The notes beneath the pieces are model-generated. The model searched no databases, was not told where the DNA came from, and saw only the letters and a program-made list of their open reading frames with translations. A stretch of 47,791 nt of DNA from Nitrospiria bacterium. GTDB lineage: Bacteria > Nitrospirota > UBA9217. The stretch's first letter is position 1, and every line of letters begins with the position of its first letter. The stretch lies in NCBI GenBank assembly GCA_919902495.1, contig CAKKRC010000016.1, positions 1 through 47,791 of the forward strand, given 5' to 3'. Both the position numbers and the translations under genes were made by a program. Below are positions 357-17,274 of the stretch, one piece after another.

Positions 357-1022
357 TTAGAACTCGAACAGGAAACCCATGAGGTAGCTGGTCCCGCCGA
401 GGTTCACCTCGGGCGTGCCTACGGTCGCGTGCGTGACCTGGACCTCGCCGAAGAGGTAGGTATGTTGAATGCCGTAATCGGCGGAAAGGTTGTGTGCCGC
501 GTGGGGGTCGATCTCATCCAGGAGGAGTTGGATCCCTGCCCGCCCATGGTAGCCGTTCACTGAACCGCGGACCGTTGCCTGGCCATCGGTCTTCACACGG
601 TAGTACATCCGCGTCCATCCGCCTCCCGCGTAAGGTACGAGCCACTGCGTTTCCTTGAACACCCCTCGGATCAGGACGAAGACGTTGAGCGGCGCAAGTT
701 CGTAATCTACCCGCCCGGTCAGGACCTGACCGCCGAAAAATGCGCTGTTCAGGGGCGCCGATGCCAGGCCCCGGTCCTTGATATACCCCCCCTCGATCCC
801 CAATTCAACCTGCCTGAGCACCTTGTAGGCCAATGATCCCGCGTAGTGCCACGTCCTGTCGTCGCCATAGTAGGTCTTCCAGTTATCGATGTCCGGATAG
901 AAATATCCTCCCTTGACCTCGACGGACCAGTGCGGCTTGAGCGGGGCCGGCTCCGCGGCGTGAACGGCAACGGGGATAAGCAGTAGCAGCACGAGAGACA
1001 GGACGATCGTTCGAACGTTCAT
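357..1022 (-). CDS. outer-membrane beta-barrel protein
   Basis: This is a 221-residue protein with a clear Sec signal peptide (residues 1-22, hydrophobic core, AHA-type cleavage site). The mature part has alternating polar/hydrophobic strands rich in Gly, Tyr and Trp and ends in FEF, the C-terminal aromatic signature of outer-membrane barrels recognised by BAM. Its size fits an eight-stranded OmpW/OmpA-like barrel, but I cannot name a subfamily. The ATG overlaps the TGA of the upstream CFI-box gene (ATGA, 1019-1022), so the two are translationally coupled. The function is probably an envelope partner of that protein; a pore or anchor role is inference. Confidence 0.7.
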   Translation of the reverse strand: MNVRTIVLSLVLLLLIPVAVHAAEPAPLKPHWSVEVKGGYFYPDIDNWKTYYGDDRTWHYAGSLAYKVLRQVELGIEGGYIKDRGLASAPLNSAFFGGQVLTGRVDYELAPLNVFVLIRGVFKETQWLVPYAGGGWTRMYYRVKTDGQATVRGSVNGYHGRAGIQLLLDEIDPHAAHNLSADYGIQHTYLFGEVQVTHATVGTPEVNLGGTSYLMGFLFEF

Positions 1023-2944
1023 GGTTGATTCCCCATGGGGCGGCGTGTACGCAGGGACCGCTTCCGGAATGCGAGAAGCGCGGTCAGCGCGATCAGGAGC
1101 ATTACTGCAACGGCCAGCGCCAGGTGAGGGGCCCGGGTGACCAGCAAGGCAGCGGAGACGACCGGACCGAGCGCCGCCCGGACGAACGGCTTCAGCGCCG
1201 GGTGTTCATTCAGATAATGTGCCGCAGTGGGGGAGTACTCGTAATACCAGCGGACGAACGACTTGCCCGGCGCATTGGTCAGGAGCCGGGTGTCACGGAA
1301 CTCCCGGAGGACCTTGACGGCAAAGGCCTCCGGCGACCCATAGGCGGCCGTGGCGATGAAGCATCCCGTGTTCGGCAGGTTCGGATAGGGGACGAGCAGC
1401 TCGGGCAGGCCCTGTACAGGGTCGGACGGCGAGCTTATTCCCGGTATGCCCACGTACACTTTCAGCTCTTCGGAATATCTGCTTTCATCCTGCACGCCCG
1501 GTGTTCCCGCCGTTGACGAGAGGTCGTACGCGGTCACCGCAAGATAGTATGGCGCCTGCGCTACCGCGGTGATCGCGATGGTATAGAGCTCTCCATTCAC
1601 CAGACCCGACAACGTATAGGACGTTGTGTTCGCAACGGTGATGGGAGGGAACGTAAGCGTTGGCGCGGATGCCAGGCTGTAATAGATTGTGTAGCTCGTC
1701 GCTCCGGGAACAGCGGACCAGGAAAGACGCAGGCCTTCGTTGCGGGGTTCCGGTCTGGACAGGACGGGCCTTGCGGGCGTTGCCGCGGTGGTGGTCAGCC
1801 CGGTGAGGATCACGTTCGTAGCGGTGCCCACATCGATGGGCGATGTCCGGGTCACGCCTGATACGACCGCGTCGGCGCCGTTGTAGCTCCCGGTGGCCTT
1901 GCCGGAAACCTTGTCGTAATGTACATTGTAACCCTTCGTGGAGTACGCGTTGTTCGGAGACCACGAGAGCGTGATGGTGTCGGTGATCGTTCCCGTGGAG
2001 GCCGAGGCAAGGGCGGAGACGACGGAAACAATATAAGGAATCCTGTCGGATTGGCTGCCGTAAGCGCCGATGTCGGTCCCCGACGTATCTCCCGTGCTAT
2101 TGAAGCCCATCGACGTATCTCCCGCCGTAATGCAGGGCGAACTGGCCAGCAGGTGGAAATCCCTCAGGGTGACGTCGCTGGGATCCGGCTTGACGAACTT
2201 CGGGTCGAGAGCGGAAATATTCCCTCTCCAGTCAGGGGGCGGGACGGTCACGTCGTGCGGGTCGATCGTGACCGTGACCACGGCGGGGCCGATGTTGCCG
2301 CCAAAGAACAGATTGTTCTTTATGGTGAGCAGGGACACGTTTGATGAGATCGCCGTGCTGCCGGCACCCTGGTTGAAGATATTGTTGATGATATTGAGAT
2401 TCACGTCGTTGGATACGATGCCGTTGCTGTTCAAATAGAAAGTGTTGTTGAAAACGCGCGTGCTCGGCGATGCTGATATCGAGATCGCCGTACTGCTGGT
2501 CCCGATCTCGAATATATTATTCCGGATGTCGACCGACGACGAATTCTGGACCGCAATGCCCGTGTTCGCGCTGAAGAAGGTGAGATTTCTGATGCTCAGG
2601 GAAGAGACCGCGCCACTGATGGTAAGGATCGTACCCGAGCCGCCGCCGTTCAGGATCGTCTGCGCGGTCTCGGAGCCGGAGATCGAGACGCTTTGACTGA
2701 GTGTCGCATTCGCCGCGCTGTGCGTACCGGGAAGAATATCTATCGCATCACCGGAAAGAGCCGCGGCGACGGCCTCTTGAAAAGAAAGATAACAGATCGT
2801 CGTTGGCGTTTCTACCGGGCACTGATCGCTCGTCGTCGCCACGACACGCGTCACGGCCGCCGCGGCTGGAGAGGAGAACAGCAGTATCAGTATCGCGGCG
2901 GTGCAGATCGCGACAGGCAACGACAGTGATGAATTATAGTTCAT
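1019..2944 (-). CDS. secreted beta-helix / fibronectin III / CFI-box protein
   Basis: This is a 641-residue protein. Residues 1-29 are a Sec signal peptide. Residues about 30-270 are rich in short N/S/I/V repeats with recurring IxNNxF, typical of right-handed parallel beta-helix (PbH1) coils. Two fibronectin-III-like domains follow at about 300-490, with LSWSPN and LSWSAV strands. The C-terminal 114 residues begin with CFIATAAYGS at Cys528, the CFI-box, then a charged amphipathic stretch, a hydrophobic membrane segment at about 607-627 and a basic tail. That tripartite tail is known from CFI-box-CTERM proteins and is presumed to be an envelope-sorting or anchoring signal. The start has AAGGGG upstream. 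It is the first gene of a two-gene operon with the barrel protein. Confidence 0.75.
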   Translation of the reverse strand: MNYNSSLSLPVAICTAAILILLFSSPAAAAVTRVVATTSDQCPVETPTTICYLSFQEAVAAALSGDAIDILPGTHSAANATLSQSVSISGSETAQTILNGGGSGTILTISGAVSSLSIRNLTFFSANTGIAVQNSSSVDIRNNIFEIGTSSTAISISASPSTRVFNNTFYLNSNGIVSNDVNLNIINNIFNQGAGSTAISSNVSLLTIKNNLFFGGNIGPAVVTVTIDPHDVTVPPPDWRGNISALDPKFVKPDPSDVTLRDFHLLASSPCITAGDTSMGFNSTGDTSGTDIGAYGSQSDRIPYIVSVVSALASASTGTITDTITLSWSPNNAYSTKGYNVHYDKVSGKATGSYNGADAVVSGVTRTSPIDVGTATNVILTGLTTTAATPARPVLSRPEPRNEGLRLSWSAVPGATSYTIYYSLASAPTLTFPPITVANTTSYTLSGLVNGELYTIAITAVAQAPYYLAVTAYDLSSTAGTPGVQDESRYSEELKVYVGIPGISSPSDPVQGLPELLVPYPNLPNTGCFIATAAYGSPEAFAVKVLREFRDTRLLTNAPGKSFVRWYYEYSPTAAHYLNEHPALKPFVRAALGPVVSAALLVTRAPHLALAVAVMLLIALTALLAFRKRSLRTRRPMGNQP

Positions 2945-3183: not shown

Positions 3184-6100
3184 ATGGCCCTGTACCGCCC
3201 TGCCGCACGCATTGCCGTGCCGCTCCTGTTCATTCTATTCATCGCTACCTCCCTGCCCGCCTATCAGCAATTCGAGTTCGTACGGGAGATCGGTGAGTCC
3301 GGGAAGAAAACCCCCCAGCGCCTGCTGAACGAGCCGCGGGCCCTCGCCCTTGCCGGCGACCATATCTACATCGCCGATACCGACGCCCATCGCGTCGTCG
3401 TGCTGGACCAGTCGGGAAAGACCGTGCTCACCTGGGGAAGCAAAGGGGACCAGAACGGCCAGTTCAAGGGGCCCTCGGGTATTGCCGTGGACGAACAGGG
3501 GAACGTCTATGTCGTCGACGGGGGGAACGGGCGCATCCAGATATTCGATGGCAAAGGCATGTTCCTTCGGGGCTTCGGCGCCAAAGGCTCGGGGCCGAAG
3601 CAGTTCAGCGATCCGCGTGGCATCAGCGTCAGCCAGGGGCTTCTCTATGTTGCCGATGCGGGGAACAGCCGCGTGCAGGTCCTCACAACGGGAGGGATAT
3701 TCCTGGGACAGATCACCGTTACGACCAAAAAGGACGAGATGAAGACCCCGGTGGATGTTGCCGTTGATATGCAGAACCGGATCTATGTCCTTGACAGCGA
3801 TATGAACAAGGTGCGCGTCTTCACCGGCGGCGGGGTCCAGACCCTTTCGTTCGGTGCAAGCGGGAAGGGGACCGAAGGGTTTGACGAACCGCTGGGGCTG
3901 GCTGTTGACGGCGCGGGCAACATCTATGTCGCCGACAGCGGGAACGTCAAGATCAAGAAGTTCGATCCCCAGGGAAAGCTGTTGGGCTCAATAGGATCGG
4001 AAGGCCTCGGCCCGGGGCAGTTCAGAAGGCCGTCGGGCATCAAGGTCGACCGCGAAGGAAAGATCTATCTCCTGGATGCCGGCAAGCATACGCTCCAGAT
4101 CTTCACCAGTGAAGGCGGCGACGGAGCATTGCTTGCCCAGGTCTCCCCGCCTCCATCGGTCGTGCTGTTCAAAGAGCTCCCCGGCGAGGTCGTCGCCCTT
4201 ATGGCGGACAAACAGCTCTGGGGCATCTCCGGCGACTCGCTCATTGCCTTGGGGAGTGGTAGTGGGAAACAGATCGGGATCCGTGGCAGTGAACCGGGCA
4301 TGCTCAAGAATCCCCGGGGGGGCACCGTGGATGGGACCGGGAATTATTGGATCGCCGACACGGGCAATGATCGTCTGCAGAAGTTCAGCATTGACGGCGC
4401 CCTGCTGCAGGTGATCGGCAGGTCCGGCTCGAAGGAAGGAGAGTTCAGCTCTCCATCCGCGGTCGCGTTGACCTTGAAGGGCAACATCGTTGTCGCCGAT
4501 ACCGGCAACCGCCGGATGCAGGTCTTCAGCGCAAAGGGCCTGTTCCTCGGGGCCTTCGGCAGGTCCGGCAGCCAGGCAGGGCAGTTCTCCGAGCCTGTCG
4601 GGCTTGCCGTGGACAACAGCGAGAACATCACCGTCGTTGACCGGGGGAACAACCGGATCGCCAGGTTCGACAAGTCCGGCACCCTGCTGTGGGAGGCCGG
4701 AAAGGCGGGAAAGCAGGACGGCGAGTTCAAAGACCCGGAATCGATCATCGTTTCGCCTGACGGCGAGGTGTACGTCCTTGACGCGGGCAACGGACGGGTG
4801 CAGATCTTCGACCGGAACGGGAAATTCCTGCGCAAGTTCGGGAACGAAGGCAGGGGCCCCGGAGAGTTCCGGTCGCCCGCGGGGCTTGTGCTGGAAGGCG
4901 GCACCCGGCTGTCCGTGGGGGACCGCGGCAACAAGCGGGTGCAGGTCTTCACCCTCCTGCATACCCAGGCGGTCCCTGCCGAGGTGGCGGCCCAGGCGAA
5001 GATGAACGAGGTCCAGGTGAGCTGGAAGCCCGGCACCGAGACCTATGTGGAACATTACAAGGTCTACCGCGCCGATGCCCCGGGCGGCGAGTACAAGCTG
5101 CTCACCGCCACGGCGGAGCCGTTCTTCGTGGACCGGGGGCTGCCGAGCAACCGGTCGTACCACTACCGCATCAGCAGCCAGGCGAGGGACGGCAATGCGA
5201 GCGCCTTCTCGGGCACCGTGTCGGCGGTGACGCCGCGCCTTGTGCCCTCGCCGCCGAAAAAGGTGCGGATCGATGCCACGGAGAAGCAGATCACGCTTTC
5301 CTGGCTTCCGAACCTGGAGCCCTTCGTGACCTCCTACCGGGTATACCGGACCAGGCAGCTCGGCACCGGGTTCGCGCCGGCCGCCACGATCGACCGCACG
5401 CTCTTTGTCGACAATCCGCTGACCGACGACACGCTGTACTACTATCAGGTCACGGCGGTGGGAAAAGAAGGGGACGAGAGCCAGCCGAGCGAGGTGATAT
5501 TCGCCTCCACGCCCAAGGCATCGCTCACCGCGCCGCCCGTGGAGTTGGTAACGATCGAGATGCGCGAGATCTTCGCGTCCTCCTATAAATACTATGAGTC
5601 CCATTCGCTGGGGAAGGTCGTGCTTCGGAACAATACGGACATCCCGTTCCCAGCCGCGAAGCTCACCTTCTCCATCAAGGACTACATGGATTTCCCGACG
5701 GAGATCGCGGTCCCCGAGATCGGTCCGAAGCAGGAGATGGACCTGCTGGTCAAACCGGTGTTCAACAACCGGATCCTGGAAGTGACGGAGAACACGCCGC
5801 TCCAGAGCGAAATAGCCCTGACCTACTACAGCGCCGGCGAGGCGAAGACCGTGAAGCGGAGCTTTCCGGTCATGCTCTATGAGCGCCATGCCATGACGTG
5901 GGACCAGAAAGAGAAGATCGGGGCATTCGTGACGCCGAAGGACCCGCCGGTCGCGGACTTTGCCCGCGGCGTGATACAACCGTATGTGGACGCCTACCCG
6001 AACCTGCATCCGTCCCTCGTGTATGGCCGGACCCTGTATGCCGCCCTCGGGGTGTATGGGCTGTCGTACATCGTCGATCCCTCGAGCCCTTTCCAGGAGT

Positions 6101-6993
6101 TCTCCGAGAAGGCGACGGTCGTCGATTATCTCCAGTACCCCCGGGACACGCTTGCCCGGAAGAGCGGTGACTGCGATGACCTCACCATCCTGTTCGCGTC
6201 GGCCCTGGAGAACATCGGCATCGGGACCGCGCTCGTGGATGTTCCGGGCCACGTGTTCATTATCTTCAACACCGGGGTGCCCGAGGCGGAAAAGAACACC
6301 CTGGGGTTCTCCGACTCCCTCCTGGTCGTCCATCGCGGCACGGTCTGGATACCCGTGGAAATGACCCTGGTGGGTTCGTCGTTCACCCGGGCGTGGCAGA
6401 AGGGCGCCGAGGAATACCGTGACTGGTCGGCGAAGGGCAAGGTCGAGATCGTCGAGACCCAGAAGGCTTGGGAGCAGTTCCGGCCGGTGACGCTCCCGCC
6501 CGTTGACGGGAAGCAGATCAAGGTCAAGCAGGAGGAGATCGAGGCGAAGTTCAAGGACGAGCTCGAGGCACTGGGCCGCCAGCGGCTGGCGGCGCTCTCG
6601 GCCGGATATCTTGCGGCCCTCAAGAACAAGCCCGACGATGTTTCCGCCCTTGCCCAGCTCGGCATACTGTACGGCGAGAACGGCCTCACAACCGAGGCGC
6701 TTGAACAATTCCAGAAACTGCTTGCCGTGGAGAAGGACAATGCCATGGCGCTGAACAACATCGGGAACATCCACTTCCTGCAGGAGCGTCTTGACGAGGC
6801 GCGCCAGGCCTACGAGGCGTCGCTCAAGGTCGAGCCGGGCGACACGGGCATCATGGTGAATCTTGCGCGGGTCCACTTCAAGGCAGGCAAGAAGAACGAC
6901 GCACGGAAGGTGTTCCAGGACGCAGCGGCAGCTGACCCGCGTGTCTTGCGCCGGTACGGCGACCTTGCGGCGGAACTGGGAGTGGCGAAATAA
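3184..6993 (+). CDS. giant secreted NHL-propeller / FN3 / transglutaminase-like / TPR protein
   Basis: The protein has 1269 residues. The start at 3184 is chosen because AGGAGG lies six bases before this ATG; the longer open frame from 3004 lacks a ribosome binding site. Order: signal peptide (1-26); a six-bladed NHL propeller (about 40-310, repeats of GQFxxPxGIAVD...IYVADxGNxRIQ); a second propeller (about 330-590); two FN3 domains (about 596-780); an Ig-like linker (about 780-900); a transglutaminase-like papain fold with Cys997 in SGDCDD and His1023 in VPGHVF; then three or four TPRs (about 1136-1258). The third triad position reads WIPVEMT, so Glu1059 stands where Asp is usual. It is probably periplasmic or surface-exposed, acting in protein or peptidoglycan crosslinking or cleavage on a binding scaffold. 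The enzymatic role is inference. Confidence 0.8.
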   Translation: MALYRPAARIAVPLLFILFIATSLPAYQQFEFVREIGESGKKTPQRLLNEPRALALAGDHIYIADTDAHRVVVLDQSGKTVLTWGSKGDQNGQFKGPSGIAVDEQGNVYVVDGGNGRIQIFDGKGMFLRGFGAKGSGPKQFSDPRGISVSQGLLYVADAGNSRVQVLTTGGIFLGQITVTTKKDEMKTPVDVAVDMQNRIYVLDSDMNKVRVFTGGGVQTLSFGASGKGTEGFDEPLGLAVDGAGNIYVADSGNVKIKKFDPQGKLLGSIGSEGLGPGQFRRPSGIKVDREGKIYLLDAGKHTLQIFTSEGGDGALLAQVSPPPSVVLFKELPGEVVALMADKQLWGISGDSLIALGSGSGKQIGIRGSEPGMLKNPRGGTVDGTGNYWIADTGNDRLQKFSIDGALLQVIGRSGSKEGEFSSPSAVALTLKGNIVVADTGNRRMQVFSAKGLFLGAFGRSGSQAGQFSEPVGLAVDNSENITVVDRGNNRIARFDKSGTLLWEAGKAGKQDGEFKDPESIIVSPDGEVYVLDAGNGRVQIFDRNGKFLRKFGNEGRGPGEFRSPAGLVLEGGTRLSVGDRGNKRVQVFTLLHTQAVPAEVAAQAKMNEVQVSWKPGTETYVEHYKVYRADAPGGEYKLLTATAEPFFVDRGLPSNRSYHYRISSQARDGNASAFSGTVSAVTPRLVPSPPKKVRIDATEKQITLSWLPNLEPFVTSYRVYRTRQLGTGFAPAATIDRTLFVDNPLTDDTLYYYQVTAVGKEGDESQPSEVIFASTPKASLTAPPVELVTIEMREIFASSYKYYESHSLGKVVLRNNTDIPFPAAKLTFSIKDYMDFPTEIAVPEIGPKQEMDLLVKPVFNNRILEVTENTPLQSEIALTYYSAGEAKTVKRSFPVMLYERHAMTWDQKEKIGAFVTPKDPPVADFARGVIQPYVDAYPNLHPSLVYGRTLYAALGVYGLSYIVDPSSPFQEFSEKATVVDYLQYPRDTLARKSGDCDDLTILFASALENIGIGTALVDVPGHVFIIFNTGVPEAEKNTLGFSDSLLVVHRGTVWIPVEMTLVGSSFTRAWQKGAEEYRDWSAKGKVEIVETQKAWEQFRPVTLPPVDGKQIKVKQEEIEAKFKDELEALGRQRLAALSAGYLAALKNKPDDVSALAQLGILYGENGLTTEALEQFQKLLAVEKDNAMALNNIGNIHFLQERLDEARQAYEASLKVEPGDTGIMVNLARVHFKAGKKNDARKVFQDAAAADPRVLRRYGDLAAELGVAK

Positions 6994-7090
6994 ATTGCGG
7001 ATTGCGGATTGTAGATTGCGGATTAGAATCCGAAATCATTCGATACTGTTTCCATTGTAAATTCGCAATCCGCAATCCGAAATCCGCAAT
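6994..7090. repeat. heptamer palindrome (ATTGCGG family)
   Basis: The left arm is five 7-nt units starting at 6994 (ATTGCGG, ATTGCGG, ATTGTAG, ATTGCGG, ATTAGAA). The right arm at 7063-7090 is four inverted units (CCGCAAT type). The spacer is about 34 nt. The right arm is nearly identical to 46023-46050, 39 kb away. It lies between two co-directional genes and directly abuts the upstream stop codon. Confidence 0.85.
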
Positions 7091-7106
7091 TGAAAGGGAG
7101 GTTCCT

Positions 7107-7622
7107 ATGATCAGAAAAGCTATCATCGCGTTCAGCATGCTCGCCCTGTGCATCACCACGGCCGCGGCCCAGGAGACGAAGGGGTCCGGGACCTCTTCGT
7201 GGTTCAAGGAGCTCCAGAAGAGGATCGACATCATCTCGCCCCGGAAGAAGCTCTCGGTGAGCACGGGCGTGGCAGGCGTGCGCGGCGCGAAGGATGACAA
7301 CGGCAGGAGCAAGCTCTACTGGAAGGGCAAGAAGGGCGAGGAGTCCGTGACCGAGGCGGAACTGGCCGAGTTCAAGGAAGCCCTCGCCTATGCAGAGGCT
7401 GGGAAAAGATCCGAGGCGATCCATGAGTTCGAGGAGTTTCTGAAGCAGTATCCGGACAGCGCGCTCGTGCCCGACGCCAAGAAGAGCCTGGACATGATAA
7501 AGATGGAAGCGAAGGCCGAACAGGTTCCGGAGGCAAAGACCGAGCCGAAGGCGGAGAAGGCTGAAACGCAGCCGGAGGTCAAGGCCGAGCCGAAGCCGGA
7601 ACCGAAGGCGGAGGCGAAGTAG
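7107..7622 (+). CDS. small periplasmic TPR-like protein with Lys/Glu/Pro tail
   Basis: The protein has 171 residues. The ATG at 7107 is chosen for the GGGAGG six bases upstream and because it opens directly on a signal peptide (residues 1-21, ending AAA-QE). The middle (about 75-120) is one helical hairpin with TPR/YbgF-like spacing (EALAYAEAGKRSEAIHEFEEF followed by PDSALVPDAKKSL). The last 45 residues are low-complexity K-A-E-P repeats, probably an extended periplasmic spacer or wall-associated tail. It follows the giant NHL/transglutaminase gene in the same direction and is closed by a strong terminator, so the two likely form one transcription unit. Its function is unknown. Confidence 0.75.
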   Translation: MIRKAIIAFSMLALCITTAAAQETKGSGTSSWFKELQKRIDIISPRKKLSVSTGVAGVRGAKDDNGRSKLYWKGKKGEESVTEAELAEFKEALAYAEAGKRSEAIHEFEEFLKQYPDSALVPDAKKSLDMIKMEAKAEQVPEAKTEPKAEKAETQPEVKAEPKPEPKAEAK

Positions 7623-7651: not shown

Positions 7652-7686
7652 AAAGGCAGGGCAGGCGCCCTGCCTTTTCTGTTTTT
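7652..7686 (+). terminator. Rho-independent terminator
   Basis: A perfect 11-bp stem (AAAGGCAGGGC at 7652-7662 with its complement at 7667-7677) and a 4-nt loop are followed by a T-rich run (7675-7687). It closes the 3184-7622 unit. Confidence 0.88.
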
Positions 7687-7727: not shown

Positions 7728-9002
7728 ATGACCGCTCAACGCGCCGCATCCCGCAATCCCTGGACGTTCGTTCCCACGCTCTACTTCGGAGAGGGCCTTC
7801 CCTACATCCTGATCAACACCGTCTCGGTCATCATCTACAAGAAGATGGGCGCGGACAACGCCTCGATCGCCTTCTGGACAAGCTGGCTGTATCTTCCCTG
7901 GGTCATCAAGATGTTCTGGGGCCCGCTGGTGGACACGAATTCCACGAAGCGGAACTGGATCCTTGCGACGCAGGCGGCCATGGCGTGCTGCATGCTCGTT
8001 ACCGCCTGGTCGCTTTCGATCACGCAGTTCTTTTTCGTGTCCCTGGCCGCCTTCGTCGCCGGCGCCTTCATCTCGGCCACCTACGACATCGCCGCGGACG
8101 GGTACTACATGCTGGCGCTTACGGAGAAGGAGCAGGCGTTCTTCGTCGGCCTCCGCTCCGGATTCTACCGTCTGGCCATGATCTTCGGATCGGGGCTCCT
8201 GGTCTATTTCGCGGGACGGATCGAGGCCGCGTCCGGGAACGTTCCGCTCAGCTGGACCGTGGTCATGTGCATCGCCGGGGCCCTCTTTGCGCTGGCGTTC
8301 GCCTGGCATTATTACATATTGCCCTACCCGAAAAGCGACGAGCGCCGAACGGCGGGCGATCATGCCGGGCTGACATCGTTCAAGGACGTATTCACCGCGT
8401 ATCTCAAACAGGAGAAGGTCGGCGTGCTCGTGGCGTTCATCCTGCTGTACCGGCTCGGCGAGGCCATGCTGTTGAAGCTTGTCAGTCCGTTCCTCCTGGA
8501 CCCGCATCAGGCGGGCGGGCTTGGCCTCACGACCTCGGAGGTCGGGCTGGTGTACGGCACCGTCGGCATTCTCGCGCTCGTCGCGGGAGGGATCATCGGC
8601 GGGGCGCTCATCGCGAAGTTCGGGCTCAGGCGCTGCATCTGGCCGCTGGTGCTTGCCATGCACCTTCCGGACCTGTTCTTTGTCTACATGGCCTACGCGC
8701 AGCCGCCCGTGGCCTTCGCCTATCCGCTCGTGGCGCTGGAGCAGTTCGGCTACGGCATGGGCTTTACCGTCTTTACCGTCACGCTGATGTATTCGGCCGA
8801 GGGCGCGTACAAGACCTCCCACTACGCCATTTCCACCGGCATCATGGCGCTGGGCATGATGCTGCCGGGGTTCTTCTCGGGATGGCTCCAGCAGGCCGTG
8901 GGTTACCGGATGTTCTTCATCATCGTCTGCTTCCTGACCATCCCCGGCATGCTTACGATCCCGTTCCTGCCGACGAAAGACAAGGATAGCTCCTCATCAT
9001 GA
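7728..9002 (+). CDS. MFS transporter, AmpG-like
   Basis: This is a 424-residue inner-membrane protein with about 12 hydrophobic segments. The opening NPWTFVPTLYFGEGLPYILI and the loop KMFWGPLVDTNSTKRNWI resemble the AmpG/PAT branch of the major facilitator superfamily. That branch imports muropeptides (GlcNAc-anhydroMurNAc peptides) for wall recycling, or acetyl-CoA in eukaryotes. No ampD, nagZ or ampC neighbours are visible, so the substrate is not established. The ATG has no obvious Shine-Dalgarno. Its TGA overlaps the next ATG by four bases (8999-9002), which links it to the two propeller proteins downstream. Confidence 0.75.
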   Translation: MTAQRAASRNPWTFVPTLYFGEGLPYILINTVSVIIYKKMGADNASIAFWTSWLYLPWVIKMFWGPLVDTNSTKRNWILATQAAMACCMLVTAWSLSITQFFFVSLAAFVAGAFISATYDIAADGYYMLALTEKEQAFFVGLRSGFYRLAMIFGSGLLVYFAGRIEAASGNVPLSWTVVMCIAGALFALAFAWHYYILPYPKSDERRTAGDHAGLTSFKDVFTAYLKQEKVGVLVAFILLYRLGEAMLLKLVSPFLLDPHQAGGLGLTTSEVGLVYGTVGILALVAGGIIGGALIAKFGLRRCIWPLVLAMHLPDLFFVYMAYAQPPVAFAYPLVALEQFGYGMGFTVFTVTLMYSAEGAYKTSHYAISTGIMALGMMLPGFFSGWLQQAVGYRMFFIIVCFLTIPGMLTIPFLPTKDKDSSSS

Positions 9003-9943
9003 TGATCACCCTCACGCATCGTGTGCTGCTGTGGCTCCAGGCGCTGGCCCTTGTGATCTGTCTCGGCATCGCGGTGTGGGCCGGCCAGAAGGCCGGGGCG
9101 ATGCAGGGCGCCATCACGATGGTCCGCGATCCGGGCGGCGTGATCACCGTGCTGACGCAGGGGACGATCTTCACGCTGTTCCCGTCGGGCGGGATCGAGA
9201 TCGCGCGGGACCTGAAGGATGCGGGGATATCGGGTCCGTTCACTGAATTTACGACCGGCCCCGGCAAAACCGTCCAGTTCGTCCGCACGGGATCGGCTGA
9301 CAGGATGCGCTTGACCCTCGTATCCGCCCAGCTGAGCCCGGCTCCGCCGGACAACGCGCTCAAAGACGGGGGGCGGGTCTTCTACGCGCCATTTGATCCT
9401 GACCGGCCCCTGTTGTGCCAGAACCACACGCTCGACAACGACGGATGGAGGTACGCTGCCGATGCTGATGCGCGGCGGATCGTTATGCTGGATCGGCAGG
9501 GTTCGGTAGTGCAGGCCATCGCGACGATGCACGCCGGGAATCCCGTCCACACGACACCGTGTAAATTCTCCCGCTATGGCAACATGCTTTACGTTATCAA
9601 CCGGGAGCGCAACGTTGAAGGCAGCGAGATCGTAGTGGTCGACCTTGATTCGGGAAAGGTCCGGCCGTTCCTGCCGGCAGGTATTGCTATCGATCCCCTC
9701 GATATCATCGCGATGCATGACGAGGTGCTGATCGCGGACAACGTGACCAGAAATATTTTGAGCTTCTATCCCGAGGGTGTTTATCGGGGATATTTCGGCT
9801 TGCCGAACCTGCAGTATTATTTCACCGAGATAAACGGGAACTACCGGGCCTCCCTATTGACGATGGTCTGCTCCCTGGCAGCTGCGGTGTTCATCATCAT
9901 CATCGCCATCGCGGTCAGGGTCCGGCAGGCCGGGGGCCTGTAA
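8999..9943 (+). CDS. membrane-anchored propeller-like protein, short paralogue
   Basis: This 314-residue protein has one hydrophobic helix at each end (about 8-30 and 280-305), with a beta-rich extracytoplasmic domain between them. The domain has YVTN/NHL-like strands such as LYVINRERN and VVVDLDSGK. Near its end it carries IDPLDIIAMHDEVLIAD then TRNIL and GYFG, shared with the next gene. N-terminal helices and spacing match too, so the two are tandem paralogues. No named family is recognised. The start is coupled to the MFS stop (ATGA). A sensor or binding role in the periplasm is inference from topology only. Confidence 0.7.
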   Translation: MMITLTHRVLLWLQALALVICLGIAVWAGQKAGAMQGAITMVRDPGGVITVLTQGTIFTLFPSGGIEIARDLKDAGISGPFTEFTTGPGKTVQFVRTGSADRMRLTLVSAQLSPAPPDNALKDGGRVFYAPFDPDRPLLCQNHTLDNDGWRYAADADARRIVMLDRQGSVVQAIATMHAGNPVHTTPCKFSRYGNMLYVINRERNVEGSEIVVVDLDSGKVRPFLPAGIAIDPLDIIAMHDEVLIADNVTRNILSFYPEGVYRGYFGLPNLQYYFTEINGNYRASLLTMVCSLAAAVFIIIIAIAVRVRQAGGL

Positions 9944-10055
9944 AGGGGCTGGCGAAGACGTCCCGCCCGCCCCGGGCGGCGATTCGCACGATGCGGGCAG
10001 AGGGCATGTACCGTTGCGAAGAAAGCAAGGGTCGAGTCCCCGGAGGGTGTCTCGG

Positions 10056-12179
10056 GTGAACAAACGCACAATCATTCTCCTTAACATCCTTCTTCTTGCG
10101 GTCCTGTTGAAACTGGCGTTCTGGGCCGACCAGCGGTCGTTCGAGTCGCAGGGAGTGGTCCGCATGCTCGCGGGCAGTGACGGAACGCTCTTCCTGCTCA
10201 CGAACGACGAGATCCTTCACGCTTCTCAGAACGGGGACCTGCTGGCGAACTGGCCGCTGGCAGGCATGGGGATCACTGAGCCGGTGGCGGACCTTGCCTT
10301 CGGACTTGAGGGGCAGCTCCTCGTCGGACTCATCGAATCGCAGGAGATCCGGCGGTACACATCGGAGGGGAAGTTCGTGGGAACGGTACCCCGCCCACCC
10401 TCGCCGGAACGGGTCGGCGTGCCGGGACAGCACTTGCGGAACTTCAAGTTCACGCGCGACGATCGCTCCGGCACCCTCTACGTCGCTGACTCCAATCATC
10501 ATCGCATCCAGATCTATCCCTCCGGGGGAAAAGAGGCACGGGTCCTGACGTCTCCCTCCGGGACACGTCCCGTTGTCATGGACGAAGGAGAAGAGGGGTC
10601 TGAGGACGAACAGCCGCCCGCCATGGACCCGCATCGACCGTTCCGCTACCCGAACTCCCTTTCCCTCGACGGCGACCGGCTGTACGCCACGGACACGGAC
10701 AATCACCGGATCATCGTGTTCCACCTCGACGGTACGCTGGACCGCATCATCCCCACCACGCGGGGGGCCCGGAACATGAACATCTTCCCGGTCCATTTTG
10801 GCCGCATGGACGACAGGCTGTTCGTCATCAATCGCGGACCGATGTTCGTGGGCGGCGAGGTCGTCGTGCTCGATTCGGCATCACCGGTATCACGTCCGCT
10901 GTACGACCGCGGGCTCGCGATCGATCCGCTGGACATCCTGGTCCTGGGCGACGACGTACTGGTCGCCGACGGGGAGACGCGGAACATCCTGCGGTATTCG
11001 CCCGGCGGGTATTACCTTGGATTCTTCGGGAAGCCTGCGCTCCAGGAACTCCTGCACGGCAAGGAGCGGTCGTATCGAGGCTACCTGTTCCTTCGGGTGC
11101 TTGCCATCGGCGGGATGGCATTGGTGCTGATCGCATTCCTCGTGTTCAAACGGTCCGAGCGGCAGGAGCGGACGGAACAGGGACTGCCCGATGTGCATCA
11201 GCCGCTTCCGGCGCTGCAGGCGTTCCTCGGTCCCTTGGGAAGCAGCCGCCGGACCGTACTTCTCTGGCTTGTGCCCGGCCTCGGCTACATCGCAGCGGGC
11301 AGGCTGCTGCGAGCCATCATCCTTGTGCCGCCGCTTGGATTTCTGGTCCTGCTCTTTATAGTCTTGCTCGTGACGGTGTGGGGACAGGGCGCCATGCTCC
11401 TGTCCGTGTTCATGATACAGGGGATCATAACCGCGGCATATTGGACCGGCGTTGCGCTGGACGGGATGCGCCTCAGCGAGGGAGAGCAGCGTCCGGAGAA
11501 GAAGTTCGATATTCTCGCATTGCTGAAAATCGCCGGTCTTCCGTTTATCACTGTTGTTGCAGGGGCAGCCAGCCAGCTCGTTTGGGAGCTCATGAAGAAG
11601 AGCGCTCCTGACATCGCGCTGCCGATCGAGGTGTTCCTGAACACGTCGTTGAAACAGCTGGTCGGGTTGTCGGGGCAGGGCGGCGTGCTGGCTATCTCGA
11701 CGCCGGCAGGCCGGTTCCTGGGGTGGGCCGGCGCCGGCGCTGCTGTGTTCGGGACGATCTCGTGGAAGCTCGGACGCGGGCAAGTTCATATTGCGGCATC
11801 GACGGGCATCGGGTTTCTGGTGGGGATGCTGTCATGGATATTTACCGCGCTCGTTCCCGGATCGATGCCGGGCGGCGCCTATTACACACCGTTATCGCAG
11901 GGCCTGCTGGTAAGCCTTGCGGTCTATCTGCGGTTTCGGGGTCCGCTTGTCTCGTTCGGCATCGTTCCGGTGGCGGTCGCGTTCGTATGGATCGGCTCCG
12001 TGGCGCGGCTTGTTCTCTTTATGGCGTCGGCGCGGATGCTGGTCGGTCTTCCCGGTGCAGATGCCCGCATACGGGCCGTTGTCGTGGAAGCCTTTTTCAT
12101 CCACGCCGCGATCCTGCTGATGATCGCCATCCAGGAGCGAAGGGACGGGACCCGTACGGACCGGGATCGGATCGCCTGA
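10056..12179 (+). CDS. membrane-anchored propeller-like protein with polytopic C-terminus, long paralogue
   Basis: This is a 707-residue protein. GTG at 10056 is preferred because GGAGG lies at 10042-10046 and translation opens on the TM helix; a TTG at 10014 is also in frame. After the first helix come NHL-like strands (LYVADSNHHRIQIY, LYATDTDNHRIIVF) and an acidic insert (DEGEEGSEDEQ). The paralogue signature IDPLDILVLGDDVLVAD...TRNIL...GFFG follows, then a TM helix at about 345 and roughly nine further hydrophobic helices. The C-terminal half resembles generic TM2/Yip1-like membrane domains but I cannot assign it. A GC hairpin (9963-9979) lies in the 112-nt spacer before it. Probably co-transcribed with the MFS gene. 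Confidence 0.7.
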   Translation: MNKRTIILLNILLLAVLLKLAFWADQRSFESQGVVRMLAGSDGTLFLLTNDEILHASQNGDLLANWPLAGMGITEPVADLAFGLEGQLLVGLIESQEIRRYTSEGKFVGTVPRPPSPERVGVPGQHLRNFKFTRDDRSGTLYVADSNHHRIQIYPSGGKEARVLTSPSGTRPVVMDEGEEGSEDEQPPAMDPHRPFRYPNSLSLDGDRLYATDTDNHRIIVFHLDGTLDRIIPTTRGARNMNIFPVHFGRMDDRLFVINRGPMFVGGEVVVLDSASPVSRPLYDRGLAIDPLDILVLGDDVLVADGETRNILRYSPGGYYLGFFGKPALQELLHGKERSYRGYLFLRVLAIGGMALVLIAFLVFKRSERQERTEQGLPDVHQPLPALQAFLGPLGSSRRTVLLWLVPGLGYIAAGRLLRAIILVPPLGFLVLLFIVLLVTVWGQGAMLLSVFMIQGIITAAYWTGVALDGMRLSEGEQRPEKKFDILALLKIAGLPFITVVAGAASQLVWELMKKSAPDIALPIEVFLNTSLKQLVGLSGQGGVLAISTPAGRFLGWAGAGAAVFGTISWKLGRGQVHIAASTGIGFLVGMLSWIFTALVPGSMPGGAYYTPLSQGLLVSLAVYLRFRGPLVSFGIVPVAVAFVWIGSVARLVLFMASARMLVGLPGADARIRAVVVEAFFIHAAILLMIAIQERRDGTRTDRDRIA

Positions 12180-16107: not shown

Positions 16108-16161
16108 TATGATCACGTTGTGCGCGGGTTGTTTCTCCTGGCTGCTGGTTACAAGGTCCCC

Positions 16162-17274
16162 ATGTCCGATCCCTTATTGAACATACCTCCCGAACGTTTC
16201 TCCAGTCTGCTCAAGATCGGTCTGCGCCTCACCGCCGAACGTGATCTCGACCGGCTGCTCGGCACGATCATCGAGGAGACCACCTCGGTCATGGACGCCG
16301 ACCGGAGCTCGCTGTTCCTGATCGATGTCGAACGCGGCGAGATGTGGGCAAAGATCGCGCAGGGCGTGGAGGTGGTCGAGATCCGCTTCCCCGTCGGCGT
16401 GGGCGTTGCCGGGACCGTGGGACGGACCGGCGAGATCGTCAATATTCCCGACGCATACGCCGACCGGCGGTTCAACCCCGAGTTCGACCGGAAAACAGGG
16501 TACCGGACGAAGAGCATCCTGTGCGCGCCGCTCAGGAACACCTGCGGAGAGATCATCGGCGCGATCCAGGTGCTGAACAAGAGGGCCGGGACCTTCGGCA
16601 GCGAGGACGAGACGCTGCTCGCCGCGCTCTCATCGCACGCGGCGGTCGCGATCGAGAACGCCGATCTCTACCGGAGATTGTCCGCGCTGAATCTCTCCCT
16701 TGAGCGAAAAGTGGAGGAGCGGACCAAGGAGCTCTCGGCGGCGAACGAACGACTCTCGGCGCTCAACCGTAAGCTCGCGGAGATCTCGATCACCGATGCG
16801 CTCACGAAGGTCTACAATCGCCGCTATTTCACCGAACGTCTCCTGCAGGAGGTGAAACGCGTCAGCCGCTACGGCCCGACGGTGTCCCTTCTCATGATCG
16901 ACATCGATCTCTTCAAGAAGGTGAACGATACCTGGGGCCACCAGGCGGGGGACACGGTCCTTTCGGGGGTGGCGGGGCTCATCAAGGGCAGGCTCCGGGC
17001 AACGGACCTGATCGCGCGGTACGGCGGGGAGGAATTCTGCCTGCTCGCGACCGGAACGGACCAGGCCGGAGCGCAGGTGCTTGCGGAGCGGGTTCGGGCG
17101 CTTGTGCAGAACGCCGTATTCGAGCACGGGGGGACCGCCATTGCGGTCACGGTGAGCATCGGGGTCAGCACCTGGGAACCTTCGCTCGGGGAGGACCCGG
17201 AAGAGCTGGTCCGCAGGGCGGACACGGCGCTGTACCGGGCCAAGGAGCAGGGAAGGAACAGGGTTTGCGCTTGA
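16162..17274 (+). CDS. GAF-GGDEF diguanylate cyclase
   Basis: This is a 370-residue cytosolic protein: GAF domain (about 15-165, with FPVGVGVAGTVGRTGEIVNI), an amphipathic coiled coil (about 170-215), then a GGDEF domain. The active-site loop is GGEEF at 288-292, a functional variant. An RxxD product-inhibition site (R279-D282) sits five residues before it. It should make cyclic di-GMP under control of a ligand or redox signal bound by GAF. The ATG at 16162 is preferred over the GTG at 16120. It follows the HAD gene closely and may be co-transcribed. Confidence 0.9.
   Translation: MSDPLLNIPPERFSSLLKIGLRLTAERDLDRLLGTIIEETTSVMDADRSSLFLIDVERGEMWAKIAQGVEVVEIRFPVGVGVAGTVGRTGEIVNIPDAYADRRFNPEFDRKTGYRTKSILCAPLRNTCGEIIGAIQVLNKRAGTFGSEDETLLAALSSHAAVAIENADLYRRLSALNLSLERKVEERTKELSAANERLSALNRKLAEISITDALTKVYNRRYFTERLLQEVKRVSRYGPTVSLLMIDIDLFKKVNDTWGHQAGDTVLSGVAGLIKGRLRATDLIARYGGEEFCLLATGTDQAGAQVLAERVRALVQNAVFEHGGTAIAVTVSIGVSTWEPSLGEDPEELVRRADTALYRAKEQGRNRVCA

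Follow-up and report, generated by a model that had tools for sequence, protein, structure and literature searches.

LapG and DvhG are periplasmic transglutaminase-like (TG-like) proteases with a Cys-His-Asp triad. DvhG depends on calcium, for which D316 and E318 on either side of C317 serve as ligands, and its cleavage site, a [TAP]AAG motif, is preceded by a targeting helix and a turn (PMC3032545, PMC13090378). TG-like domains also occur in giant proteins. A 2013 survey reports such fusions, in which they are combined with HEPN, helicase and nuclease domains, and protein cleavage is the role that it proposes for the TG-like domain (PMC3710099).

The window analysed here, i.e., the whole stretch of 47,791 nucleotides, contains a gene for a large exported protein with a TG-like domain and, directly downstream, a gene for a small exported protein. 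The results suggest that the two are an enzyme and its partner, which act in the cell envelope as a so far uncharacterised pair. Such a pair is thereby defined in two phyla, Nitrospirota and Pseudomonadota, and a likely substrate or regulator can be named for an orphan cysteine enzyme. A short motif of the partner, which is open to mutation, makes the pair directly testable. In addition, an exported enzyme is linked to giant proteins of the defence type through their peptidase block, the role of which in the giants is only proposed. A description of the domain chain or of the pair was not found in the open-access literature, a scope outside of which most subscription papers lie.

Results and Discussion

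Architecture of the large exported protein

The original prediction had given the span 3184-7622 for a secreted protein. The open reading frame is real, and the span covers two genes, 3184-6993 and 7107-7622. The first encodes 1269 amino acids on the forward strand (open reading frame list of the window and translation), and its start was picked with the help of the signal peptide and the homologue L016. The features of the locus are:

3184..6993, +: coding sequence NHL-NHL-FN3-FN3-sandwich-TG-TPR, 1269 aa (open reading frame, Pfam, homologue L016)
3184..3264, +: putative signal peptide, residues about 1-27, without lipobox (by eye)
3271..4128, +: NHL propeller 1, six predicted blades, residues about 30-315 (Pfam, blade period)
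4156..4983, +: NHL propeller 2, six predicted blades, the first degenerate, residues about 325-600 (Pfam, blade period)
4972..5523, +: two FN3 domains, residues about 597-780 (Pfam fn3, 2 stretches)
5530..5883, +: beta-sandwich, residues about 783-900 (genome profile searches, homologues, first AlphaFold model, hhalign)
5884..6498, +: transglutaminase-like domain, residues about 901-1105 (Pfam, alignment, profile, structure comparison)
6172..6174, +: codon of Cys997, the putative nucleophile (family alignment)
6250..6252, +: codon of His1023 (family alignment)
6358..6360, +: codon of Glu1059, third triad position (family alignment)
6535..6990, +: C-terminal TPRs, residues about 1118-1269 (Pfam, AlphaFold model, structure comparison)
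7107..7622, +: coding sequence of the exported partner, 171 aa, with arm, G-V-R-G...W motif and TPR (Pfam, homologues, motif count)
7275..7286, +: partner motif GVRG, residues 57-60 (partner alignment and motif count)
7652..7677, +: strong terminator-like hairpin of 11 pairs, directly 3' of the partner gene; none was found between the two genes

The translation verified the residue numbers Cys997, His1023 (in PGHVF) and Glu1059 (in WIPVE). The N-terminus, judged by eye, looks like an ordinary signal peptide. Pfam yielded 10-11 NHL repeats (PF01436, 11 stretches, 241 bits; best stretch 94-121). The blade positions, 59, 106, 152, 199, 245 and 292 in the first half and 339 (degenerate), 386, 433, 480, 527 and 574 in the second, follow a period of about 47 residues. 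Two NHL propellers had been proposed, and these twelve positions fit two six-bladed ones with putatively closed rings. Pfam matches were also found for the anticipated FN3 domains (residues 689-772 and a second stretch) and for the C-terminal TPRs (about 1118-1265). A beta-sandwich of about 115 residues, which had been overlooked in the first reading, precedes the TG domain; it is common to DUF4011/DUF3320 proteins and to scaffold architectures that lack the TG domain. Cys997 is the sole cysteine of the whole protein.

With the model of ScyF-type NHL proteins (NF035926) the NHL part scored 329.6 bits, near the cut-off of 350 bits and below it. In contrast to the large protein, the ScyF model is an NHL model of 376 positions that lacks TG and TPR, and neither a scytonemin context nor a PEP-CTERM signal was seen for the large protein.

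Relation of the TG block to known families

The proposed TG-like domain was backed at the level of the fold by alignment, profile and structure comparison, with Pfam scores below the cut-offs. Transglut_core (PF01841) gave an E value of 0.061 and 14 bits for the window protein and 0.0052 and 17.5 bits for the homologue L020, and the cut-off of 23 bits was not reached. The E values for DUF553 (PF04473) were 0.014 and 0.0015, respectively, also below the curated cut-off. The matches lie around the Cys and extend to just before the His. The third triad residue of these two families is usually Asp, unlike the Glu of the family described here.

In an earlier AlphaFold model the sandwich and the TPR parts were good and the TG core was poor, and the TPRs filled its structure comparison. 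A model of the TG core from ten homologues (mean pLDDT 65.7, pTM 0.69) was confident over the His and Glu strands and poor before and around the Cys. VIA-align rows 1-11 comprised PNGases, a putative cysteine protease (3isr), XPC, a TGase (4xz7), LapG and a pseudomurein endoisopeptidase (PeiP), with Z values of 6.3-4.9. These values are low, yet the rows belong to one fold class, an assignment that is in part general background. According to the title of a cited paper, PNGase and XPC/Rad4 fall into one fold class. LapG (4fgo) was aligned over 124 residues with a Z value of 5.4 and an rmsd of 4.6, with the mean pLDDT of 65.7 applying to the model. The enzymes among the fold neighbours are mainly hydrolases (PNGase, LapG, PeiP; Z 4-6), and Rad4/XPC and menin rows were also present in the structure list. 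Foldseek gave no match at E <= 0.001; its best hit was Rad4 with an E value of 0.36.

Profile comparison points to the DUF4011/DUF3320 proteins as the closest relatives of the sandwich and TG block. Their N-terminus, represented by a profile of 5 sequences, matched the block in hhalign with a probability of 98.3 and an E value of 1.3e-14 over 208 columns, up to the His. In a six-sequence alignment Cys and His were aligned and the VETT-type Glu of the DUF4011/DUF3320 proteins fell into the Glu1059 column; an acidic residue was missing both before and after their Cys. The model NF058533, "anti-phage protein ProA", was matched at model positions 12-320 only (E 4.6e-13, 47.5 bits versus a cut-off of 1500), and the large protein does not have its full-length helicase/nuclease architecture. 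The giants (MTES_1575 type; NF058533) thus carry the beta-sandwich and the TG-like block in the same order, whereas they are helicase/nuclease fusions and are devoid of the Asp before the Cys. A signal peptide, NHL, FN3, TPR or partner was not seen in them. The name ProA is known from the NCBIfam table only, and no paper on it as a defence protein was found in the open-access literature.

LapG-type proteins were compared using a set of 21 proteins chosen by PF06035 loci and a GDC motif, and hhalign gave a probability of 20 over 48 columns around the Cys. The block had no PF06035 match up to an E value of 10, in a search in which the HMMER filters drop most weak matches, and the LapG model NF045674 gave an E value of 0.19 and 10.9 bits versus a cut-off of 320 bits. 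In a PDB profile search 4u65, which is titled putative cystine protease and which we take to be LapG, had an E value of 1.1, behind an unrelated chain at 0.42. Direct membership in the LapG family (BTLCP, Peptidase_C93, PF06035) was rejected, because two defining features were tested and found to be absent: the family model was unmatched, and the third triad residue is Glu instead of Asp. LapG and DvhG share with the large protein the acidic residues flanking the Cys and, in all likelihood, the TG-like fold and the periplasmic setting; unlike in these proteases, the TG domain is fused here into a scaffold of roughly 1240-1740 aa.

Conservation of the active site

Cys997, His1023 and Glu1059 were invariant in 37/37 family rows, with a minimum pairwise identity of 33%, and the same was true for Asp996, Asp998, Pro1021 and Thr1061. 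Rows were kept only if they covered most of the profile at more than 150 bits; fragments, giant proteins and L109 (see below) were excluded. Two of the 37 rows, L054 and L140, apparently represent a single gene of genome G283. The Glu at the usual Asp position had been noted in the original prediction. Its invariance makes it a feature of the family and rules out a degenerate triad. Asp996 and Asp998 flank the Cys in LapG style, and a role in calcium binding is putative.

The TG-like fold could also be an inactive scaffold for binding, comparable to Rad4/XPC or menin. The Rad4/XPC and menin rows in the structure list and the Pfam scores under the cut-off would fit to this explanation, whereas the retention of Cys-His-Glu down to the lowest pairwise identity and the fact that the Cys is the only one in the protein argue against it, and it is considered to be very improbable.

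Distribution and architectural variants

A scan of reference genomes revealed ten homologues, four of them titled Nitrospirota and six Pseudomonadota or Gammaproteobacteria. In whole-genome searches (E <= 1e-5) a profile of sandwich and TG domain, A1, matched 17 of 295 Nitrospirota genomes. The block was complete in 12 of these (split into two pieces in G012), only the sandwich was matched in 3, and the remaining 2 matches were short and weak. In Pseudomonadota 24 of 398 genomes were matched, 20 strongly (E <= 1e-99) and 4 weakly. Three of the 4 weak matches, all except the one in G134, were inspected, and two of them are giant proteins that resemble the DUF4011/DUF3320 type by eye. The third, L109 (4464-6077, -), has a length of 538 aa, looks like an exported protein by eye and contains only the sandwich and TG block, with a VETT-type Glu; it is possibly a stand-alone version of this block. 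Because the block recurs in full in 12/295 Nitrospirota and 20/398 Pseudomonadota genomes, the chain is not due to chance, and a one-off fusion or an assembly artefact was ruled out by the recurrence of the same domain order in many genomes. The predicted domain chain is thus found elsewhere, accompanied by variants with other or extra parts.

Gammaproteobacterial members have an extra TPR array inserted between FN3 and sandwich. In a tree of 36 of the 37 rows (one was removed for a masked stretch) the Nitrospirota and the short-form G429 were set apart from the other Pseudomonadota, with G429 on a long branch. Three Nitrospirota genomes (G642, G553 and G686, in the latter with pieces on two contigs) encode the scaffold without TG domain and TPRs. 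At L103 (4168-7485), L104 (6146-9211) and L105 (58-873) another, unrelated C-terminal domain, helical-looking by eye, replaces TG and TPRs; it had no Pfam match over the cut-off in L103 and L104, which were scanned. Viral contigs gave 8 pattern matches, none of which was a relative. Plasmids gave 11 matching records; where annotated, the proteins were of the DUF4011/DUF3320 type, with 23-29% identity.

The downstream gene is a dedicated partner

The next gene, for which a small TPR-like periplasmic protein had been predicted, is indeed present (7107-7622, +) and encodes an exported protein with a TPR. It turned out to be the most informative lead, because it is an almost obligate partner. Of the 34 testable TG genes, 33 are followed directly by the partner gene on the same strand; in all, 37 distinct TG genes had remained after deduplication by the last 200 residues (L122 is partial). 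The three untestable genes end at a contig edge, with 289, 1 and 276 bases of room. In the fourth exception, L096 of genome G502, the partner is on another contig and the genes are unlinked.

A genome search with A5, a profile built from the block before the TPR, detected the partner in 14/295 Nitrospirota and 22/398 Pseudomonadota genomes (21 strong, 1 weak), including every genome with a full TG block (12/12 and 20/20). Three further genomes have a strong partner match. In G006 and G346 the 3' end of a TG gene lies just upstream, cut by the contig edge, and in G533, which is 98% complete, a TG gene was not detected. The co-occurrence gave Fisher p values of 1.3e-19 (Nitrospirota) and 8.3e-33 (Pseudomonadota), which contain no correction for shared ancestry and were obtained with an A5 profile of 16 rows, about 6 from Nitrospirota positives and about 8 from Pseudomonadota positives. 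The A5 search found no partner in the three scaffold genomes devoid of the TG domain, and therefore the partner follows the catalytic/TPR half and not the propellers. Partner genes away from any TG gene were seen at L145 (8949-9323, G533) and L148 (7953-8339, G502).

The number of hairpins in the region (6) was near the level of shuffled sequences (4.0 +- 2.3), and therefore only the 11-pair site at 7652-7677, which follows the partner gene, is telling. The arrangement is operon-like, and the next gene is a dedicated partner of the large protein.

The partner motif and the proposed mechanism

The most conserved part of the partner is the G-V-R-G...W motif between a short arm and the TPR. In 19 partner sequences P45, G57, G60 and W72 were invariant and R59 was present in 18; in 37 distinct partner segments G[VILT][RG]G occurred in all and a later W in 36. 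The mean pair identity was 0.57 for the motif block, with limits set after viewing the alignment, versus 0.31 for the TPR and 0.28 for the arm. An invariant Gln, Lys or Cys was not found in the motif block of the 19 sequences. A Lys right after the W was present in 21/37 segments, and a Cys was found in 0/37. A clear amphipathic helix in the arm was not confirmed; shuffle fractions over 19 segments ranged from 0.009 to 0.56, and amphipathicity was significant in some members only.

As the best explanation, we tentatively regard the TG domain as an envelope peptidase of the LapG kind that depends on calcium and acts on its own partner, and we put the probability of this reading at about 0.4. 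The large exported protein would be a scaffold, with propellers and FN3 domains on the N-terminal and TPRs on the C-terminal side of a TG-like cysteine peptidase. The peptidase would use a Cys-His-Glu triad and would probably need calcium, with the acidic residues on both sides of the cysteine as ligands. The small exported partner would present an N-terminal arm, which appears to consist of a short, mostly basic helix (by eye), the invariant Pro and the G-V-R-G...W motif, followed by the TPR. The enzyme would recognise this arm and most likely cut in or beside the motif, and the cut would free or switch the TPR part of the partner, in much the same way as LapG processes its adhesin at the targeting helix/[TAP]AAG arm.

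Proteolysis of the arm is favoured over the other explanations because the layout resembles that of LapG/DvhG, with D996-C997-D998 in the enzyme and, in the partner, a motif of small residues that comes after an arm and an invariant Pro. Both systems would thus have a dedicated substrate with a comparable helix-turn-small-residue arm; in contrast, the LapG substrate is a large adhesin and the partner is a small TPR protein. Several results speak against this reading. The profile similarity to LapG is weak (probability 20), and the DUF4011/DUF3320 relatives lack the flanking acidic residues. No TG gene was detected in G533, which has a partner, and the two genes of G502 are unlinked. The arm is amphipathic in some members only, the TG model has low confidence around the Cys, and no Foldseek match reached E <= 0.001. 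Moreover, a docking motif would be conserved equally well, and cleavage of the partner is what we infer.

The partner could, alternatively, be an uncleaved adaptor, anchor or activator, the GVRG...W arm of which docks onto the TG or TPR part, while the enzyme acts on another envelope substrate (adhesin, peptidoglycan peptide or lipoprotein). Docking would account just as well for the pairing and for the conserved motif, TPR proteins commonly serve as adaptors, and G533 has retained the partner without a detectable TG gene. On the other hand, the motif is placed like a protease site, in an arm that is presumably exposed and that links signal peptide and TPR, and across the phyla no gene other than the partner is a constant neighbour. 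Docking is a serious possibility, albeit a doubtful one.

The original prediction of an envelope scaffold with a cysteine enzyme fits to the putative signal peptide, the repeats at both ends, the invariant Cys-His-Glu and the TG-like fold. It had left open whether the enzyme crosslinks or cleaves, and the evidence leans towards cleaving, because the enzymes among the fold matches are mainly hydrolases, the acidic residues are LapG-like and the partner is devoid of an invariant Lys/Gln acceptor. If the TG domain were instead a true transglutaminase or an acyl-transferase, it would crosslink the partner or other proteins of the envelope. In favour of this, the fold class is the same, the TGase 4xz7 is among the top structural rows, and a Lys follows the W in many partners. 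As an acceptor this Lys was discarded, its frequency being only 21/37. With no invariant Gln, Lys or Cys in the motif block and mostly hydrolases among the top fold-neighbour enzymes, crosslinking is regarded as improbable.

Peptidase action on the partner, the preferred reading, could be extended by the relationship to the giants. The pair would then be an envelope branch of a defence-associated peptidase lineage, in which a periplasmic calcium-dependent Cys-His-Glu peptidase, with a catalytic block related to the anti-phage DUF4011/DUF3320 giants, is mounted on propeller and TPR sensors and cuts one private partner at GVRG, thereby switching an envelope response. We regard this extension as unlikely.

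Gene neighbourhood

A larger conserved operon was rejected, as the neighbours vary among the loci and only the partner is constant. A CHASE2-adenylate cyclase gene adjoins the pair in three lineages, upstream at L078 (4590-6863), downstream at L080 (10901-13138) and divergently at L082 (13328-15562; L025/L082), hinting at a signalling link. Pilus genes were observed near the pair at L074, L076, L079 and L083, and an AmpG-like transporter gene in Nitrospirota.

In the window, the region 357-2944 (-) encodes an MXAN_2562-type outer-membrane barrel that overlaps a NosD/FN3 protein with a CFI-box-CTERM end, and both genes are kept upstream of the pair in several Nitrospirota loci. The region 7728-12179 (+) encodes an AmpG-like MFS transporter (below cut-off), followed by a protein that Pfam did not match and by an NHL protein, stretches of which look membrane-like. 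Further downstream of the pair, a GGDEF diguanylate cyclase is encoded at 16120-17274 (+), which is of interest because LapG is under c-di-GMP control.
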